Assembly: GCF_000305775.1 (NCBI RefSeq)
Contig: NC_018866.1
Span: 1 to 64,000 of the forward strand
DNA length: 64,000 bases
DNA from: Dehalobacter sp. DCA
GTDB lineage: Bacteria; Bacillota; Desulfitobacteriia; Desulfitobacteriales; Syntrophobotulaceae
Reading direction: 5' to 3'
Shown: one piece after another, positions 12,734 to 63,488 of the stretch
Numbering within the stretch: position 1 is the stretch's first letter
Layout of the letters: every line of letters starts with the position of its first letter
Notes under the pieces: generated by a model
Told to the model about the DNA's origin: nothing
The model's input: only the letters and a program-made list of their open reading frames with translations
Databases searched by the model: none
Program-made: the position numbers and the translations under genes

Positions 12734-12871
12734 TTGGGCAATGTGGAAGCCATGTAGCCGAAAACCTTGATTTTATGGGGTTTTCCAAGCCCTCGGAGTT
12801 CGAATAGAGATGGATTTTTGAGTTGTTCTATCCAAGTTCTATCCGAGGTGTTAGAATAAAGTTAATAATTC

Positions 12872-12965
12872 GGAGAAGTACCCAAGTGGCTGAAGGGTCC
12901 GCACTCGAAATGCGGTAGGCCTGGTTTCCCCGGGCGCAAGGGTTCAAATCCCTTCTTCTCCGCCA
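12872..12965 (+). tRNA. tRNA-Ser (anticodon CGA), probable ICE attachment site
   Basis: A 94-base serine tRNA: acceptor GGAGAAG/CTTCTCC, anticodon stem CCGCA/TGCGG with loop CTCGAAA (anticodon CGA at 12906-12908), long variable arm, T loop GTTCAAATC, encoded CCA. The integrase reading frame begins 17 bases after its 3' end in the opposite direction, the standard arrangement for an element integrated at a tRNA 3' end. Confidence 0.96.
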
Positions 12966-12982
12966 TCATGGAGCTGTTAATT

Positions 12983-14334
12983 TTAAAGATTAGCAGCTCC
13001 TGCCATTTTAAGCGGTAAAGATTTTTGAATGATCTTTGCTGTTTTTTTCTTTGATTGGTATTCCAGATGGCCATAAGTATTAACCGTTGTCCGAATATCG
13101 CTCGTGACCAACCCCAATCCCTGATCCGCTCCATAGGCACCTCGTTGGCCATCATCAGCCCTACGCACGAGTGTCGAAGGTCATGGAACCTGACATGAGG
13201 CAATCCGGCCTTTCTGAGCAAATCACGGTGTCTGTTGGTTATATAGTCAGGGTCGATGATTTCTCCCAAAGGATGAACGCAAAGATAACCAAGCCATTCC
13301 TTGCTGTAAGAACTGCCGCAAAGCGCCCTCAGTTCTTTATTTTCCGCTATCTTAGCTTTTATCCTTTCCTCGACATAAGGAATTAAAGGATAAGTACGGT
13401 TGCTTGAATCCGTTTTGAGCTTGTCGGACGGGATATATATTTTTTTCTTGTCGATCACTGCTTTTGTTACGGTGTGGCTGGCCCGAAAGAATTTATACCT
13501 GAAATCAAACTGGCTTTCTCTGGTGCCAACACACTCACTACGCCGCATCCCATAGAAGCCGCCGAGCAATATAGGAATTTCAATAATATCCCCTACGATA
13601 AACTCAAGATAATACTGCATCTGATCGGCATTGAGAGTAGCGGCATTGTATTTCTCGATTTTGTGCAGGGTGATGGCGCTGTTTGGATTTACACTAATCA
13701 TCTTTTTGCTGACGGCATAATTCAATGCCTGGTTGATAATAGTGTAATCCTTGGCAACTGTCGCTTTCTTCTTGCCATGTTTCAGTCGGTAACCATAATG
13801 TCCCTTAAGCAGCTCGGGAGTAATTTCCCGGACAGTGCAGCCGTAAGCCTTGAAGGTCGGATATAAGTTGTGCTCGACGTTTTCTGCATATCCGGCCCAG
13901 GTATTGAGCTTGATTGTTTTGTCAAAGTTAAAATCTTCGCCGACTACAATATTATCTGGGTGCCTGAAGGCAAGCCATTCATTTAGTAAATCTGCAAACA
14001 AGGGATTCTCAGAATAGTTTTCATCAGAATCGTCCTGAGCATTGTTGTTTTCCTCGGGCGTTTCCTGCGCAACCGTCTTTTCATCCTTATCAGCTATGCC
14101 GTTTTTCAAGTCAAGGGAATATTGGATTCTTGCCGCCAGGCATTTGCTTTCAGCTTCCGCTTCGTTTTCCTCGGTTGTGGCAAGCCCGGTTGATGTCCAA
14201 AGGGGCTTGCGTTTTCCGTTCCGATTCTTTCGGTTGAGAACAGTATAATAATAGCCTTTCTTAGGTGTAATGAAGCCTCCTATTAATTCATCCTCGGTCA
14301 GTCCGACCATTTTCAGCATTGTGGTTAGTTCCAT
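12983..14334 (-). pseudogene. int: Tyrosine recombinase (ICE integrase), frameshifted
   Basis: Phage/ICE-type integrase that would recombine the element with the tRNA-Ser 3' end. An AP2-like arm-binding N-terminus (KKGYYYTVLNRKNRNGKR) and SAM-like core-binding domain precede the catalytic domain with GMRRSE (box I Arg) and HDLRHS (box II). Near 13105-13116 the frame breaks: upstream reads MERIRDW, whereas the expected continuation DIRTTVNTYGHLEYQSKKK, with the nucleophile Tyr, lies in another frame ending at 12983. Two single-base insertions (in the GGGG run and in GAGCGAT) would restore DWVGHEDIRTT. The unshifted frame instead runs through the tRNA gene and is meaningless there. Likely inactive unless this is a sequencing error. 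Confidence 0.88.
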
Positions 14335-14421: not shown

Positions 14422-14661
14422 TCATTTTTCTTCACTGTCTCTGCTTGGACCTATTCTCAAATAACTCAACAAAAAAGGCTTGGGGATTTTATAGGCCCGC
14501 CCAACCTTTAGGCATTCAATTCTATTTTCCTGTATCAAACCGTAACCCGTTTTAAGGCTGATGCCAAGAATTTTACACATTTGCTTTATATCAAGCACAT
14601 CGGGGTATCCTTTTAGCATGATTCGGTAGGCTTTTTCTTGCGTTAATTTTTCATTAGCCAT
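14422..14661 (-). CDS. xis: Excisionase-family DNA-binding protein
   Basis: 79 aa protein with a MerR-like winged helix as in the Tn916 Xis/helix_turn_helix_17 family: VLDIKQMCKILGISLKTGYGL (written in two parts: recognition helices about residues 22-42), then RIECLKVGRAYKIPK forming the wing. Such proteins bend DNA to direct excision. It sits just upstream of int with a GGAGG site before its ATG, the standard xis-int order. Confidence 0.85.
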   Translation of the reverse strand: MANEKLTQEKAYRIMLKGYPDVLDIKQMCKILGISLKTGYGLIQENRIECLKVGRAYKIPKPFLLSYLRIGPSRDSEEK

Positions 14662-15249
14662 AATTAAGCCTCCTCTTGCTTTTATCAGGTCTAAACTTCA
14701 TAAAAAAATTTTTATATGAAACAATCGTCATTATTTTGATTAGCGCAGCGGGAGAATGCGCCTTCGTTCAGACACGTAGCGCATATCATAAACAGGCGCA
14801 CCCCTATACTGCACTTCTGTTTTGGTTTATAAGACTATGGTTTTATTCGGCGGACAGCGGTTGACCGTCCTCATAGGAATTTCACCTCTCCCAGGTTCTC
14901 TGCAAGCCGCCCCCATTGCGTGATCCTGCTATAGCAGGGCTGTAGCTGGACGGAAGTATCATTATCCCTCTGTATGTGTCATCGCCTTAAATGCTGCCAG
15001 CATTTATTTATAGCATGGATATTAATCGCTCGTACCTGACCTAATTCAATCGCAACATCATTTATGCTTCACTAAATCTGATTGTTGAAGGATTGGTGGT
15101 TATGGCGTATCTGCTATTTGGCTTTCCTTTTCAGGGCATACAGGGAAAGTACCGAATAAAAACAATTATTTACTTGTCAAAGATCAGTAAGGGGGGAAGA
15201 ATTTGTCCCTCTAATAACCACTTCATTTTTTAGGCAAAATCGCAGGGCG
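14662..15249. other. Non-coding stretch between regulator and xis
   Basis: 588 bases with no convincing gene on either strand. It contains two clean palindromes: CCTGCTATAGCAGG (14925-14938) and AAATGCTG-C-CAGCATTT (14989-15005). Such symmetric sites next to xis could be regulator or accessory recombination sites. Very short frames exist on the - strand but lack support. Confidence 0.4.
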
Positions 15250-15672
15250 TTACAGAAAGTTTTTTAAAAACTTTTCGATATTTTTTAGTCCGCGTTCGAT
15301 GGATTCCCTAACTGCGCTTTCACTAATGCCATCTGCTTTAGCAATGGCGGTTTTGCTTATACCCAAAAAGAAATGAGCATAAACACGTTTTGCTTGCTTT
15401 TCCGGCAAACTGTTGATGGCAGTATATAACTCATGATTGGTGACTTTCCTCTCATAAATCTCTTGAGGAGACAAGGAAATGAAAACAATTTCCTGCTCAA
15501 TACCGTCACCACGGTCGAGAGAGTAATAGGCTTTGTGTCTGTATGTGCGTAATTTGTAAGCATTCTCGCTCAGCTTGAAGCACTTCAGAGAAGAAGCGAT
15601 TTCATCCGCAACTTCAACAAAAAAGTCAAATTGATAAAATGGGTAATAATCTCGCAAATTAATCCTTTTCAT
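15250..15672 (-). CDS. Sigma-70 region 4-like ICE regulator
   Basis: 140 aa protein starting MKRINLRDYYPFY. The C-terminal half has the sigma region 4 helix-turn-helix pattern: LPEKQAKRVYAHFFLG (about 94-109) followed by SKTAIAKADGISESAVRESI. Proteins of this type are standard in Tn916/Tn1549-like elements just upstream of xis-int and are thought to act in conjugative regulation. I chose the internal ATG at 15672 because GGAGG (15680-15684) lies 7 bases upstream; the longer frame reads into a non-coding leader. The leader contains several terminator hairpins and a c-di-GMP riboswitch. Confidence 0.8.
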   Translation of the reverse strand: MKRINLRDYYPFYQFDFFVEVADEIASSLKCFKLSENAYKLRTYRHKAYYSLDRGDGIEQEIVFISLSPQEIYERKVTNHELYTAINSLPEKQAKRVYAHFFLGISKTAIAKADGISESAVRESIERGLKNIEKFLKNFL

Positions 15673-15821
15673 TTTCAGACCTCCGTTTTGATTTTTTCGT
15701 AAAAACCAAAACAGAAGGCGGGGAACGGCACCTAACGGATTTAAATAATTTTCTTGAGAAAAAAGAAAATATATAATAATGGCGATTGTAAGCCTTAAGC
15801 TGATAAGCAACATGTTTTTGC

Positions 15822-15865
15822 CAAATAAAAAAGCACGCAGTTTGCTTAAGGCAAATCGCGGGCTT
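15822..15865 (-). terminator. Attenuator-type terminator in the regulator leader
   Basis: On the - strand AAGCCCGCGATTTGC (15865-15851) pairs with GCAAACTGCGTGCTT (15845-15831) with two mismatches and a five-base loop, followed by TTTTTTATTT. The loop-side segment GCCTTAAGC can instead pair with GCTTAAGGC at 15800-15792, which would disrupt the terminator. Mutually exclusive stems before a gene are the hallmark of attenuation. Confidence 0.7.
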
Positions 15866-15946
15866 ATCCACCGTGACGTTTGTCAAGTAAGATTTATAAA
15901 GAACATTATGAAATTCTTCTTTATTTACACCTCAGGAGGGTAATTT

Positions 15947-16003
15947 TTAACATGCTTCGCAATTAGCAGCACTCCCTTTGCTTGGGGCAAAGAGCAAAGC
16001 CAT
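15947..16003 (-). CDS. Possible 18-codon leader peptide
   Basis: Tiny frame MALLFAPSKGSAANCEAC between the riboswitch terminator and the attenuator. Leader peptides at this place are known in tet(M)-type attenuated ICE genes. Its ribosome site is weak (AGGGTTG). Supported only by position and by being a closed frame in a structured leader. Confidence 0.35.
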   Translation of the reverse strand: MALLFAPSKGSAANCEAC

Positions 16004-16045
16004 GAAAAAACAACCCTAATCTCAGGGGGTAATGCGACTATACGC

Positions 16046-16073
16046 AAATAAAAAAACTGCCTCGAAAGGGCAG
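16046..16073 (-). terminator. Intrinsic terminator just after c-di-GMP riboswitch
   Basis: CTGCC (16073-16069) and GGCAG (16061-16057) form a stem on the - strand followed by seven T residues (TTTTTTTATTT). It begins 17 bases after the riboswitch core, the usual expression platform distance. Confidence 0.8.
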
Positions 16074-16089
16074 GATATACCGTAAAACT

Positions 16090-16169
16090 GTTCGGCAACC
16101 AGGCTGTCATAGTGCATTGGCACGTTAGACCCTATGGCTTTGCGTCGCTGTCTTTAGACAACTTTGCCC
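16090..16169 (-). ncRNA. Class I cyclic-di-GMP riboswitch (GEMM) in ICE leader
   Basis: Read on the - strand: GGGCAAAG opens P1; a short hairpin GTTGTC-TAAA-GACAGC with a TAAA loop follows; then the family core GACGCAAAGCCATAGGGTCT, a second hairpin ACGTGCCAATGCAC, TATGACAGCC, and TGGTTGCCGAAC, which closes P1 (GGCA with TGCC). This is a close match to GEMM-I consensus in order and spacing. It is followed by a terminator. The next substantial gene in its direction is the sigma-like regulator at 15672, about 420 bases on, across two more leader elements. Confidence 0.93.
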
Positions 16170-17034
16170 TTATCTTTTTTATTTAGTTGATGCGTTAAGT
16201 TAAAGGAATAAAATACTGTCTTAATTGACATAGAATAATAAATACGCATATTGAGTTCGTATTTGTCATGTTATGTTAAATTATATGATAAACTCTTTTT
16301 GCATAAATCTATGTCAAATTGTGTTGTCGAAATAAGCGGATATTGTATAATTGAGTTGTATTTTGAGTTGATCATGGTAAAGGGCAGATACTCCCTGGAT
16401 GGTCAGTATTCCAGTTCTATTGAAGTTCCCTTTTACTCTCTTAAAACAAAAGTAATGCTTATTGATGAAAATACCCATATATTTCATAATTCGAAACATT
16501 ATTTACTGGTTCAGTGTCTTTGAAAAATAAGGGTGAACCTATAACCGTGAAATGCATTTTTTATAACTTCCTTTTTCGTTTAAATGAAGCTTCGTCGATC
16601 AAGTACACTTAGAAGCTTTAGAATTGATTCATCTGAAGAAAGGTATGATTTGGTTCAAACAAGGAGGGTTTTATCGTTAAGATAAATACACTCAACTAAA
16701 TGAGCATATAAAGTGTGCGAAACACTAAACCACCCGCTATTTGATTTGACGGGTGGTTTAGTGGTAGTTTAGTGTTTCGCTCCAGAATCACTGCATCTCG
16801 TGGTCTAAGTGCCTTATTTGTCCTTAGGACCACAATACGTCATCAGAATTATACTCTCCACGTGTGTTTTGGCATTAAAGAGATACTAATACGCGGAATT
16901 ACTGCTTTTGAAAAGGGGGCCGCTTTAGGGGGGGAGTGCGAAACTCGTAAATCTTTTCTCAAAACAATTATAAAATACTATCTTAGATTAGGTAGGTTAT
17001 TTTGCATCCAGCTGTCATAACTTTATTTAACTCA
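16170..17034. other. Non-coding stretch with overlapping hairpins (16717-16780)
   Basis: 865 bases lacking a supported gene. The main structure is at 16717-16780: CACTAAACCACCCG (16723-16736) pairs with CGGGTGGTTTAGTG (16750-16763), while GCGAAACACTAAAC (16717-16730) pairs equally well with GTTTAGTGTTTCGC (16767-16780). The two stems share bases 16723-16730 and so exclude each other. The rest is AT-rich and featureless to me. Confidence 0.5.
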
Positions 17035-21020: not shown

Positions 21021-22526
21021 TTACAACAGGTACATTGTTGCCAGCAGGCCCGTAAGAGTCATAACGACAGCGTAAGGCAGAGCCAGTTTTACCATTTCTA
21101 GGTAAGACAGACGAATCAGCGGAGCTAAAGCGGAAGTCAGGATGAACAGAAACGCCGCCTGACCGTTTGGTGTGGCAACTGAAGGGATATTTGTACCCAT
21201 ATTAATGGCAACTGCCAGCTTGTTGTACTGCTCCAGCGCAATACCTCCGGCTTCAAATGCTTGCTGTGTTTCAGTCATATATACCGTAGCAACAAAAACG
21301 TTATCACTGATTGCTGAAAGGACACCGTTGGCCGCAAAAAAAGCGACAAGCTGATTTTGCCCTTCCATGTTCAGTACCCATTGAATAATCGGCGTAAACA
21401 AATGCTGGTCATGAATAACCGCAACGACGGCGAAAAATACGACCAGCAACGCAGTAAACGGCAGCGCTTCTTCAAACGCATGACCGATATGCTTTTCTTC
21501 CGTAACCCCATTGAAAGCGGTAAGCAGGATAATAATCATCAGACCAATAAGACCAACTTCCGCCAGGTGCAGCGCCAGGGAGAAGATCAGCAGAACGCCA
21601 CACAAAGCCATAACAATCAGGCGTACACGTCCACGCATATTCCTGGCAGCATCTTTGACTTTTACATCCTCTTCCATAACCTTTCGCACAGACTCAGGAA
21701 GCTGGTAGCCGTACCCCCAGAACTTGGTAACTTCAAGGATAATGGTGGTCAGAAGACCAACGATCAATACCGGGATAGACACCGGGGCGCATTGTATAAA
21801 GAAATCTACGAAGTCCCATTCCATAATGGAGCCAATCAACAGGTTCTGCGGTTCACCAACCAGTGTTATTGCACCGCCCAGCGCAGTGCCCACAGCGCCA
21901 TGCATCATAAGATTACGCAGAAAACCACGAAACTCGTCCAGATCCTCATGAAGTTTCTCATCAACACTATGATCGTGATTAATGTCATACTTTTCGTATA
22001 CTTTTTCGCTGGAAGCAAACTTGTGGAAGATGTTATAGAAACCATACGCCACGGCGATAATCACCGCCGTTACGGTCAACGCATCCAGAAATGCGGAAAG
22101 AACCGCACCCAGTACAGCGAACAGGAATGAAATCGCGACTTTAGAGTGTACTTTCGTAAGGAGCTTGGAAAACAGGTACACAAGACCTTCTTTCATAAAA
22201 TAGATACCGGCGACCATGAACATCAGAAGAAGAATAACCGGCAGGTTCGTTTCAACTTCGGCATAGACTGTTTGCGTGTTCGTAAGTCCGAGCACAACGG
22301 CTTCGATCGCCAGAAGTCCACCGGCAGGAAGCGGATAACATTTCAGCGCCATCGCCAGGGTAAAAATGAATTCGACAATCAACACCCAACCTGTAACATA
22401 CATACCGGCGGTATACATTAAAATAGGGTTCAACACCAAAAAAGCAAGAATCGTTCTTTTGTACCAGTCCGGAGCGTGACCCAGAAAATTTGCTCTGAAT
22501 GCTTGTCCGATGCCTATTTGTTTCAT
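21021..22526 (-). CDS. nhaB: Sodium/proton antiporter NhaB
   Basis: Electrogenic Na+/H+ antiporter that expels sodium. About 501 aa, twelve hydrophobic segments. Family hallmarks run throughout: [10 protein letters not shown] near the start, [39 protein letters not shown]-like [31 protein letters not shown], and NTGTN-like [18 protein letters not shown]. NhaB is best known from gamma-proteobacteria, so its occurrence here suggests transfer or a less-known clostridial branch. ATG 22526 is 9 bases from GGGAGG; the ATG at 22535 abuts that site. A c-di-GMP riboswitch with terminator lies upstream. Confidence 0.95.
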
Positions 22527-22560
22527 ATGTATCATCCTCCCAAGTGAAAATAAAAGACAT

Positions 22561-22609: not shown

Positions 22610-22700
22610 TTACTTGCAGCCTGGCAATCATAGCCACTTACAAGCAGCCTTAGACCCATAGCTTTAGCGTCCTTCACTTTCACGAAGTTTACACCAACTC
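22610..22700 (-). ncRNA. Class I cyclic-di-GMP riboswitch (GEMM) upstream of nhaB
   Basis: Read on the - strand: TAAAC, a hairpin CTTCGT-GAAA-GTGAAG with a GNRA tetraloop, then GGACGCTAAAGCTATGGGTC, a second hairpin arm TAAGGCTGC...GTGGCTATGATTG, and CCAGGCTGC. Order and core match GEMM-I and the second copy at 16090, with one extra T in GACGC-T-AAAGC. The outer P1 helix is not obvious to me, which lowers certainty about function. A terminator follows 18 bases later. Confidence 0.83.
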
Positions 22701-22853
22701 GTACAACTTTATATTGTCATTTTTGCTTAAGCTTTTATATTATAACAAATAATTCTTCTTTTGAATACCCTGAATATATCCATTTTATGCTGAAGTGTCC
22801 AGGTATTTATCTTAAGTATTTTGCTTTTTAATATGATCCTTTAGCAAATCAGG

Positions 22854-25688: not shown

Positions 25689-26009
25689 TCAATCACCTTC
25701 TCTTCCACCGCTTACGAGATTAGCTGACGGATTCGGGTCGAAAGAGCTTAACCCTACCAAAGCAACCGCTTTGGATTCACCCCTATTATTTGGGTCTCCC
25801 GTTCCTAACGGATTCAGCGTATAAATATATTCAGTTGTTGTCTTAAAAAAAATAAATAAAGGTGGATAGCTATACCAATATTTGGTAGCCTCCCACCCCA
25901 GAGCCCGCTTCTCTTGAAAATGGTAATAACCATTCCAACCGAAACTAACCTTATAAAATTCTTTAATTAAGTTAATAATTAAGTCTAGCTTTCTTTTATA
26001 AGATAACAT
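25689..26009 (-). CDS. Hypothetical protein, last gene of radical SAM operon
   Basis: About 106 aa, unrecognised. The N-terminus is basic (MLSYKRKLDLIINLIKEFYK); the middle is strikingly aromatic (GWNGYYHF, ATKYWYSYPPLFIFF, YIYT); the tail is Gly/Asn/Ser-rich. It has no clear membrane anchor or signal peptide. Start: the ATG at 26009 is preferred over GTG 26021; neither has a good ribosome site. It follows the second radical SAM gene by 63 bases and precedes the terminator. It could be a second, short substrate of the radical SAM enzymes, but lacks the regular triplets of the 27 kb protein. Confidence 0.55.
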   Translation of the reverse strand: MLSYKRKLDLIINLIKEFYKVSFGWNGYYHFQEKRALGWEATKYWYSYPPLFIFFKTTTEYIYTLNPLGTGDPNNRGESKAVALVGLSSFDPNPSANLVSGGREGD

Positions 26010-42383: not shown

Positions 42384-43073
42384 TTAGAAACCGGAAAATA
42401 AAATTTCAGGTTTTCCAAGGAAGTAACCTTGTCCATAGTGAGAACCGTTTATCCTTGCCGCCTGCAATTGTTCATGGTTTTCTATGCCTTCAACAATCAC
42501 CTTGGTATTCAGCCTTGCAGCATGTCCAACAAAAGCCGTTATCAGGCTATCGCGGGTTACAACATTCTTTGATTGGATGAGACTCTTATCAAGCTTAATA
42601 TATTCAGGATCTACAAGGCACAAAGATTCTAATGTTGCCGAACCAGTACCAAAATCATCTAAAGCCAAAATAAAACCTAAGTCTCTTAGGACATTTAAAG
42701 ACGGAAAGCAAATTCTATCCGATTCCGTTATTTCCAATACTACATTTTGACCTTTTAAACATTCCCAAAAATAAGGATCGGGCAAGCTTGGATGAACGTT
42801 AATAAACGTCTTTTCTTTTGTGCTTTTTCCGATCCGGCATATTTCCGCTAAAATTATAGTTTCCAATTCCAGCACTAAATTTTTTTGGGCAGCCTCCCTA
42901 AAAACTTCATCAGGCCTAAGATTTTCCCATCGGACTAAAGCTTCAAAGCCGAATACCTTCATTTTTTGCAAATCCCAAATTGGCTGAAAAGCTATTTCTG
43001 TTTTTATCCTTCCGGACAAAATATTGTCCAGAAAACAGGCTGAGCTTTTTGATTGGCTATTCGTGATAATCAC
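42384..43073 (-). CDS. EAL-domain cyclic-di-GMP phosphodiesterase
   Basis: 229 aa stand-alone EAL domain that would hydrolyse c-di-GMP to pGpG. All catalytic signatures are seen: E44-A-L in GFEALVRW, the Asn in FINVHP, EITE, LDDFGTG, KLDKSLI, VEGIEN and GQGYFLGKP. No sensor domain. GTG start. It is the first gene of the Tad operon (17-25 bases to cpaB), and two c-di-GMP riboswitches lie elsewhere in the same region, so it may reset their signal locally. Confidence 0.93.
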   Translation of the reverse strand: MIITNSQSKSSACFLDNILSGRIKTEIAFQPIWDLQKMKVFGFEALVRWENLRPDEVFREAAQKNLVLELETIILAEICRIGKSTKEKTFINVHPSLPDPYFWECLKGQNVVLEITESDRICFPSLNVLRDLGFILALDDFGTGSATLESLCLVDPEYIKLDKSLIQSKNVVTRDSLITAFVGHAARLNTKVIVEGIENHEQLQAARINGSHYGQGYFLGKPEILFSGF

Positions 43074-61718: not shown

Positions 61719-63488
61719 ATGTACGTTGCCATAACAGGCTCGGGCAAGGCCCGGGTCATACAGTTTAGAGAAGATACCCGTATTCCGGGAACAACGAAGA
61801 AAAAGACGCATGTCGTGAAGACGATTGGTAACTATGAACGAATGCTCGCTGAGGATCCGGACATTATTGCCAAGCTTAAGGCTGAAGCAGCTGAACTGAC
61901 AAGGGCAAAGAAGGAAACGAACGCTCCTCTCGCTTTAAGCGTTACCGTTATGGACATCACATCACCTCAGGATGTTGTTCCTTCCTTCAGGTTCGGTCAT
62001 GCGCTAATCAAACAGCTTTGGAGCACTATGGGGTTAGACGCCTTTTTTCTTGCTAATTGCGGAAAGCGCAATGCTACAGCTGTTGGACAAGCTCTATTCT
62101 ACCTTGTCGCCCATCGCTGCGCAGATCCTTGCAGTATCCATGCGAGTGCATTGGAACAGAATTCCTATGCGGGTATCCTTTCTCTTGGGATCGATGTCCT
62201 TTACGATGTTCTTGATGTACTCTCCCAGCAGAAAGAGGCCATCATAAGCCACCTTGCTGACTTCTTTGAAAAGAAAACCAGCCGCAGTGGTCCTGAAGCA
62301 TACTATGACGTCACAACGTACGCTTTTGAGAGCACCCGCTGGGGCGAATTACGAATGTTTGGCTTCTCGAAGGATCACAAAAATAACGAAGTTCAGGTGG
62401 TCATGGGGCTGCTTTTGGACAACAACGGCATACCCATAACGTATGAACTTTTTCCAGGCAACACGATGGATCAGTGTACTCTGACCCGATCGGTAGAGAA
62501 GCTTAAGAGTCTGTACAGGCTGGAAAAGATCACGGTGGTTGCCGACAGAGGACTCAACAGCGGCAGCAATCTTGAGTACCTCTGCAAGGGTGGGCACGAC
62601 TTCGTCATCAGCTATACTTTAAAGCGTTCTCCTGACTCCTTTAAGGAACTTGTATGGAACGACGAAGGATGGCAAGATAGTGTGGACCTTGCCACAGGGG
62701 AGATAACCTCTCGTTCCAAGATCGTAGAGCAAATACTGGAGGTCAAGGTTCCCATAGATCAGGATGAGGAAAGTGCTGAAAAGAAAAAAAGAGGAAGGCC
62801 CAGGAAGTACACTATTGAAAAAATTCCCGTAAAGATACACTTAACCTGGTCGGCCAAACGGGCTAACAAAGACAGATCCGACAGGGAACGCGTACTAGAG
62901 AAGCTCAAGAAACGCCTTGACAAACCCTATCAGCTTAAGGCTGCAGTAAAACGGGGTTGCAATCAGTTTTTGCAGATGGAGCTTGACACAGAAGATTGGA
63001 AGCTGGATGAAGCAAAAATTGAGCAAGCCGCCCGCTATGATGGGTATTATGCGGTCATTACCAACAACCTGAACTTGAGCACAGATGAGGTTTCCAAGAT
63101 ATACGGAGGACTATGGAAGATCGAAGAGAGTTTTAGAATACTTAAGACTGACCTTAGAGCACGACCGGTTTTCGTATGGAATGACGAACATATTAAGGGG
63201 CACTTTGCCATGTGTTTCATCGCGTTATGCATACTCCGTTATGCACAGTACTTACTCGAACAATCAATGGGCAAGAGCGTTTCGGCCGCGCAAATCATGG
63301 AAGCAATACAGGACCCCCTTGCATTAGTTCAGGGAGAATACCCAAATAATATCGTTACCCCAACCCAAGTTTCCCAGACTTATCTCGATCTCGCATCGAT
63401 ACTCAAACTGACTCCTCTAAAGACAAACATGACACTGACCAAGTTCCGTTCATGCACAAAATTGGATCTAACAATAAACCTAAAATAA
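61719..63488 (+). CDS. IS1634-family DDE transposase
   Basis: 589 aa IS4-superfamily transposase. The catalytic triad is D197 (YYDVTTYAFES), D276 (VVADRGLNSG) and E469 (WKIEESFRILKTDLRARPVF, the Y-R-E-K signature region). DUF4277-like N-terminus about 85-170. A basic insertion KKKRGRPRK near 350 is AT-hook-like. Intact. Confidence 0.95.
   Translation: MYVAITGSGKARVIQFREDTRIPGTTKKKTHVVKTIGNYERMLAEDPDIIAKLKAEAAELTRAKKETNAPLALSVTVMDITSPQDVVPSFRFGHALIKQLWSTMGLDAFFLANCGKRNATAVGQALFYLVAHRCADPCSIHASALEQNSYAGILSLGIDVLYDVLDVLSQQKEAIISHLADFFEKKTSRSGPEAYYDVTTYAFESTRWGELRMFGFSKDHKNNEVQVVMGLLLDNNGIPITYELFPGNTMDQCTLTRSVEKLKSLYRLEKITVVADRGLNSGSNLEYLCKGGHDFVISYTLKRSPDSFKELVWNDEGWQDSVDLATGEITSRSKIVEQILEVKVPIDQDEESAEKKKRGRPRKYTIEKIPVKIHLTWSAKRANKDRSDRERVLEKLKKRLDKPYQLKAAVKRGCNQFLQMELDTEDWKLDEAKIEQAARYDGYYAVITNNLNLSTDEVSKIYGGLWKIEESFRILKTDLRARPVFVWNDEHIKGHFAMCFIALCILRYAQYLLEQSMGKSVSAAQIMEAIQDPLALVQGEYPNNIVTPTQVSQTYLDLASILKLTPLKTNMTLTKFRSCTKLDLTINLK

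Follow-up and report, generated by a model that had tools for sequence, protein, structure and literature searches.

A c-di-GMP-I riboswitch and a putative arrest-peptide leader upstream of the sigma-like regulator of an ICE in Dehalobacter sp. DCA

The gene for a sigma-like regulator of an ICE in Dehalobacter sp. DCA is preceded by a region that would control the sigma-xis-int module of the element from its 5' side. We consider it probable that c-di-GMP gates transcription of this gene in one clade, with a predicted OFF direction, and that a leader carrying a RAPP-like arrest motif gates sigma translation throughout the family, with stalling predicted from the conserved motif. The analysis suggests that a jammed ribosome switches the ICE regulator on; the leader motif was found in nearly all related elements examined. 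A sequence-only reading of the same DNA had proposed two checks before sigma/xis/int expression, a second messenger followed by translation. That order is kept here, and the short peptide and terminator loop it had named as the translation check are replaced by a different leader frame, which appears from its conservation to be the translation check and ends in R-S-P-P before a hairpin over the sigma Shine-Dalgarno sequence.

The element and its control region

The window (64,000 nt) is the start of the Dehalobacter sp. DCA genome, which is a single contig of 3.07 Mb. Genome positions ~12.9-77.3 kb are a Tn1549/CTn-type ICE of ~64 kb, assigned as such because of an integrase at tRNA-Ser, xis, sigma, VirB4-like ATPase, VirD4, relaxase and ParA/ParB-like genes and a distal tRNA-Ser repeat. 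The relaxase matched PF03432 and VirD4 matched PF02534, and the VirB4-like ATPase, tyrosine integrase and xis were also identified. The VirB4-like ATPase, VirD4 and MobA/VirD2-type relaxase genes lie in the right part of the window, and beyond it the ParA/ParB-like genes extend up to the tRNA-Ser 3' repeat near 77.3 kb. The sequence-only reading had overlooked this extent (~12.9-77.3 kb), as well as the RSPP frame and the Shine-Dalgarno hairpin. Features of the control region and the module downstream were located as follows.

12862-14334, minus strand: tyrosine integrase adjoining tRNA-Ser, frameshifted near the C-terminus (tblastn with the L014 integrase)
14422-14661, minus strand: excisionase, xis (TIGR01764 and PF12728)
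14871-14965, minus strand: pemK RNA motif between sigma and xis (RF02913, 72.2 bits)
15250-15672, minus strand: sigma-70 region-4-type ICE regulator, 140 aa (PF08281)
~15680-15719, minus strand: hairpin sequestering the sigma Shine-Dalgarno (GGAGG, 15680-15684), from folding of 43 leaders
15716-15730, minus strand: TGC CGT TCC CCG CCT, Cys-Arg-Ser-Pro-Pro, putative translation-arrest motif (45 distinct leaders)
15659-15931, minus strand: leader reading frame with C-R-S-P-P, ending past the sigma start, open for 68 codons upstream of the Arg
~15822-15865, minus strand: T2, second terminator, inside the RSPP reading frame (fold z -1.3)
15946-16002, minus strand: 18-codon frame MALLFAPSKGSAANCEAC, a hairpin-rich stretch and not a conserved peptide (fold z -2.3)
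~16050-16073, minus strand: T1, intrinsic terminator of the riboswitch expression platform, CTGCC-GGCAG with a T7 tail (terminator scan)
16091-16178, minus strand: c-di-GMP-I (GEMM-I) riboswitch aptamer (Rfam RF01051, 82.2 bits, E 1.2e-14)
16225-16317, minus strand: probable promoter/operator of the riboswitch transcript, proposed from the inverted pair TTGACATAGATTTAT / ATTATTCTATGTCAA around TATAAT

The window copy of the ICE is probably no longer mobile, because the integrase is frameshifted and an IS element interrupts a helicase gene. The tblastn match to the L014 integrase was split over two frames, with the break between residues 403 and 407 (window positions 13102-13114), and an IS-type transposase gene (61719-63488) lies inside the large helicase gene. 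Related ICE copies appear intact. The pemK RNA motif was found between the sigma and recombinase genes in most family loci and not ahead of a pemK gene. A second ICE in the same genome, probably at ~77-181 kb (L009), carries RSPP and the hairpin before a sigma gene of the same family, and in the stretch of it that was scanned (genome 172500-180000) no c-di-GMP-I aptamer was found.

As cargo the ICE carries TrkAH and NhaB, one beta-lysine-type and one Tad-pilus-like locus, and an EAL protein. A probable beta-lysine osmolyte locus in this cargo has Na+ and c-di-AMP riboswitches in tandem (25693-25940, minus strand) 5' of genes for a lysine 2,3-aminomutase-like protein and a GNAT acetyltransferase. 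A second c-di-GMP-I aptamer (22612-22703, minus strand) lies 5' of NhaB (21021-22535).

The c-di-GMP-I aptamer and terminator T1

A GEMM-I aptamer had been read by eye in the sigma leader on the minus strand, and the Rfam search bore this out, the score being far above the RF01051 gathering score of 35 bits. The T7-tailed terminator claimed after it was likewise recovered, as T1, by the terminator scan, which placed it at 16057-16073. T1 directly follows the aptamer, as an RF01051 expression platform would, and in a comparison of 13 relatives its stem had compensatory changes above shuffles with 96% of cells paired. Upstream, TTGACA and TATAAT are retained in close relatives at a non-canonical spacing. 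The scan for a sigma-70 promoter, which covered this one promoter type, found no independent promoter directly 5' of sigma.

At the gathering threshold, a same-strand aptamer was found 0.4-1.3 kb 5' of sigma in 16 loci, the window and 15 others (L011-L017, L023, L025, L036, L043, L054, L056, L059 and L072). Judged by this comparison, the aptamer is a genuine part of the ICE anatomy at a conserved place. No same-strand c-di-GMP-I aptamer was found at that threshold in the remaining scanned sigma loci, about half of the total, which counts against the proposal.

The riboswitch is predicted to act in the OFF direction, with ligand leading to termination at T1, because T1 does not overlap P1 of the aptamer and either strand of P1 can alternatively pair with a T1 arm. 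In the predicted antiterminator 82.7% of cells were paired, a share well beyond that of slid versions and no better than that of shuffles; its covariation thus gave no support, a point against the proposal. With c-di-GMP bound, T1 would be favoured and transcription would stop; at low c-di-GMP, polymerase would pass T1 towards sigma.

Whether such polymerases serve sigma bears on a competing explanation, in which T2 insulates sigma from the riboswitch and the aptamer either serves a neighbouring XRE-family repressor gene or is a cargo leftover. T2 lies between riboswitch and sigma and could insulate in this way. In L012 and L025 a sense XRE-family gene directly follows the aptamer and is itself followed by a terminator before sigma; in L013, L015 and L016 the XRE-family gene is antisense between aptamer and sigma, and in L023 it is 5' of the aptamer. 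Against this, the aptamer is always on the sigma strand and is kept in the window, L011 and L014, where the interval from aptamer to sigma showed no XRE-type gene. We regard this explanation as a serious possibility, if the lesser one, and c-di-GMP control of sigma transcription in the aptamer-bearing clade is preferred.

The genome encodes 19 GGDEF domains, and inside the ICE a gene adjoining the Tad-pilus-like genes (42384-43073, minus strand) encodes a stand-alone EAL-domain protein that has the usual catalytic motifs. As a speculation, this protein could lower c-di-GMP and increase read-through at the riboswitch. Similar small EAL genes were found in genomes of the same genus, in their ICEs. 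The EAL gene was considered as a general partner of the riboswitch and rejected; in the more distant genomes that were checked, no such gene was found near the transfer genes.

The leader reading frame and the Shine-Dalgarno hairpin

The translation check had earlier been assigned to a tet-type attenuator formed by the 18-codon frame and by pairing of the T2 loop with 15792-15800. The window does show both features: the frame is present, as is a 9-nt match between loop and downstream strand. Comparison of leaders across related ICEs, which had been proposed as a check on the peptide, told against its conservation. ATG is replaced by ATA in L036, a 1-nt deletion shifts the frame in L033, and L034, L035 and L011 have only two changes, both non-synonymous. 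The 18-codon peptide was rejected as a control element on the ground of this start loss and frameshift. The loop pairing was rejected also, since outside the window it occurs only in L034, which is the same locus; the other four of five relatives (L011, L033, L035 and L036) have lost it. Neither a conserved tiny ORF nor a conserved alternative pairing, as a tet-type attenuator would have, was found, and this explanation is extremely improbable. The second terminator itself proved real, and one stem mismatch weakens it in the window; L011, a close relative free of this mismatch, had a fold z of -3.6, versus -1.3 in the window. By reading, some relatives, L012 and L015 among them, have unrelated terminators at this position. 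Because T2 is inside the leader frame, leader translation might reduce termination there.

Leaders were collected by a scan with the sigma protein, which yielded 15 loci in species genomes, and by further searches, which brought the set to ~45 distinct leaders. The motif R-[S/A/T]-P-P directly 5' of sigma had Arg and Pro-Pro in 45/45 distinct leaders and Ser (41), Ala (3) or Thr (1) at position 2, with Cys before the Arg in at least 39 of the 45; as many leaders are related, these counts do not represent independent events. First and second codon positions of the motif are almost fixed and third positions are free, with Arg encoded by CGN or AGA, Ser by TCN or AGY, Ala by GCN and Thr by ACA.

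The leader frame is open upstream of the motif for a median of 60 codons, versus 10 and 10.5 in the other frames (34 representatives; Wilcoxon p 4e-6 and 2e-7, indicative only as the sequences are related). In the groups that were tested, substitution scoring beside the motif favoured the leader frame. Together these give a strong signature of a coding frame upstream of sigma. The block TGYCGNTCNCCNCC could instead be a non-coding binding site for DNA- or RNA-binding factors, as it is short and adjoins structured RNA; its variation at third codon positions, with exchanges within Arg CGN/AGA, Ser TCN/AGY and Ala GCN, and an upstream frame open for at least 30 codons in 31/34 representatives as opposed to 5-6/34 in the other frames, make such a site very unlikely and a coding motif the better reading.

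Among 264 control ORFs, ten had the motif at a comparable distance, all of them sigma-family genes or sigma-like paralogs missed by the filter, and no unrelated gene in that control set had it. Exceptions were also seen. Some sigma-like paralogs lack motif or hairpin, and Cohnella L086 has CRSPL with the hairpin intact (by reading), which counts against the arrest proposal. In L067, L074 and L088 a different sigma-like ICE gene (MEVTINYNGQAVAVEV...) has R-x-P-P at equal upstream distance. The leader peptides matched no known protein families, and a gut-type leader had no match in plasmids searched. No obvious N-terminal signal or membrane segment was recognised in the leaders as read by eye, besides a separate hydrophobic mini-ORF in the window lineage (15745-15813, minus strand; MLLIRLGLTTAIIIYFLFSQEKY in relatives), the stop of which is lost in the window so that it runs in frame into sigma.

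The hairpin was folded in the 43 leaders with a normal motif-sigma distance. Fold z was below -2 in 43/43 (median -5.6), and at least 4 of 6 Shine-Dalgarno bases were paired in 42/43 folds. The stems of different subgroups are entirely diverged but compensate to keep pairing, and each stem position shows several of the standard pair types; as stems were taken from the folds, pairing in this comparison is 100% by construction. Counted from the first Pro nucleotide, the stem begins 2-10 nt downstream (median 4), and by computation a ribosome footprint reaching +15 would break 95% of the pairs in the Shine-Dalgarno region. In anatomical terms the motif is placed where a stall could open the downstream hairpin.

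Under the proposed mechanism, a ribosome would stall at (C)R[S/A/T]PP in the leader, next to a hairpin with the Shine-Dalgarno as its 3' arm. The footprint of the stalled ribosome would cover the 5' arm, the Shine-Dalgarno would be free and sigma would be made; with the leader untranslated, or with no stall, the hairpin would close and sigma would be off. A simpler account is translational coupling without arrest, in which any ribosome on the leader melts the hairpin and RSPP is either slowly translated or inherited by accident. Leader frames often overlap or run past the sigma start, so that a special stall would be unnecessary. The stop of the leader frame is not conserved, ranging from 52 nt before the sigma start to fusion in frame with sigma, and R-x-P-P is kept across very different hairpins while this stop varies; in L063 the frame ends right after CRSPPL. 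These two observations make coupling alone rather improbable, and arrest at the motif is retained as the preferred explanation.

A clear in-frame start with a Shine-Dalgarno was found in only ~10 representatives, including L019, L021, L039, L063, L066, L068, L080 and L082. The window lineage yielded no leader start preceded by a good Shine-Dalgarno, which counts against the proposal; candidate starts in the window are TTG 15886 and GTG 15871, neither with a clear Shine-Dalgarno. In another subgroup, 13 of the 14 loci checked have an A7 run phased for -1 slippage at the point where the leader frame opens. There the leader frame opens 6-12 nt before the run, and slippage would occur from an overlapping frame. 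The run in -1 phase is associated with L085, L060, L087, L013 and L012-L020. An incoming-frame start with a Shine-Dalgarno was found only in L013, which starts with ATG, and in L060, L085 and L087, which start with GTG behind a AAGGAGGT- or AGGAGGT-type sequence. Because of the A7 phase in 13/14 loci and the starts in these four, programmed -1 frameshifting into the leader frame is a reasonable lead. A three-tier RNA logic for ICE activation, combining the c-di-GMP riboswitch (one clade), A7 -1 frameshifting (part of the family) and RAPP-like arrest, is offered tentatively and is on balance doubtful.

Relation to known systems and to ICE activation

In RAPP-type arrest, the structural basis of which has been solved (PMC10951233), the ribosome stalls with the third and fourth motif codons in the P and A sites (PMC12992588; PMC10951233). 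The Arg is irreplaceable and Ser for Ala is partly permissive (PMC12992588). RSPP is only partly active in ApdA and ApdP contexts (PMC12992588), which counts against the present proposal, and RSPP is underrepresented in bacterial proteomes. The leaders described here share with ApdA, ApdP, ApcA and SecM an R-x-P-P core, an invariant Arg and a small upstream frame. They differ in that position 2 is mostly Ser and sometimes Ala or Thr, no localization signal was recognised by eye, the downstream gene is an ICE sigma-like regulator and not a protein-localization gene, and the hosts are Bacillota, from which RAPP/RGPP upstream ORFs are reported to be largely absent (PMC12992588). The ribosome stalled on SecM melts the hairpin that covers the secA Shine-Dalgarno (PMC10987492); here too the Shine-Dalgarno of the downstream gene lies in a hairpin adjoining the putative stall site. 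By these likenesses, the RSPP leader resembles SecM/ApdA-type arrest more closely than a tet-type attenuator.

The C. difficile c-di-GMP-I riboswitch Cdi-1-3, located before flgB, has OFF logic (PMC6200980). It belongs to the same aptamer family as that in the window and likewise has a terminator directly after the aptamer, and OFF logic is predicted here also; the riboswitch here, in contrast, precedes an ICE recombination-control module. Like other Tn1549/CTn-type ICEs, the element has a MobA/VirD2-type relaxase, VirD4, VirB4-like ATPase, sigma-like regulator, xis and a tyrosine integrase at tRNA-Ser, and it departs from them in its cargo for salt tolerance, its Tad pilus locus, its EAL-domain protein and its c-di-GMP aptamer. 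In Tn916, tet(M)/orf12 attenuation feeds orf7-orf8. The present elements would resemble Tn916 in having a translation-sensitive leader upstream of a sigma-like regulator, with an XRE gene antisense between them in some relatives, and would differ in the signal, in the use of R-x-P-P and a Shine-Dalgarno hairpin instead of an orf12-type leader, and in relaxase type. A search of openly available papers found none joining arrest peptides to conjugative elements in this way.

To our knowledge, the excision decision of ICEs in this widespread family is poorly understood. If the leader stalls, the master regulator of the ICE would be tied to the state of the ribosome, as set for example by drugs or by the supply of EF-P or amino acids; one clade would add a tie to c-di-GMP. 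Published surveys with RAPP/RGPP in annotated ORFs reported few in Bacillota; the present proposal, if true, would widen the range of RAPP-like arrest peptides to include mobile elements and Bacillota.
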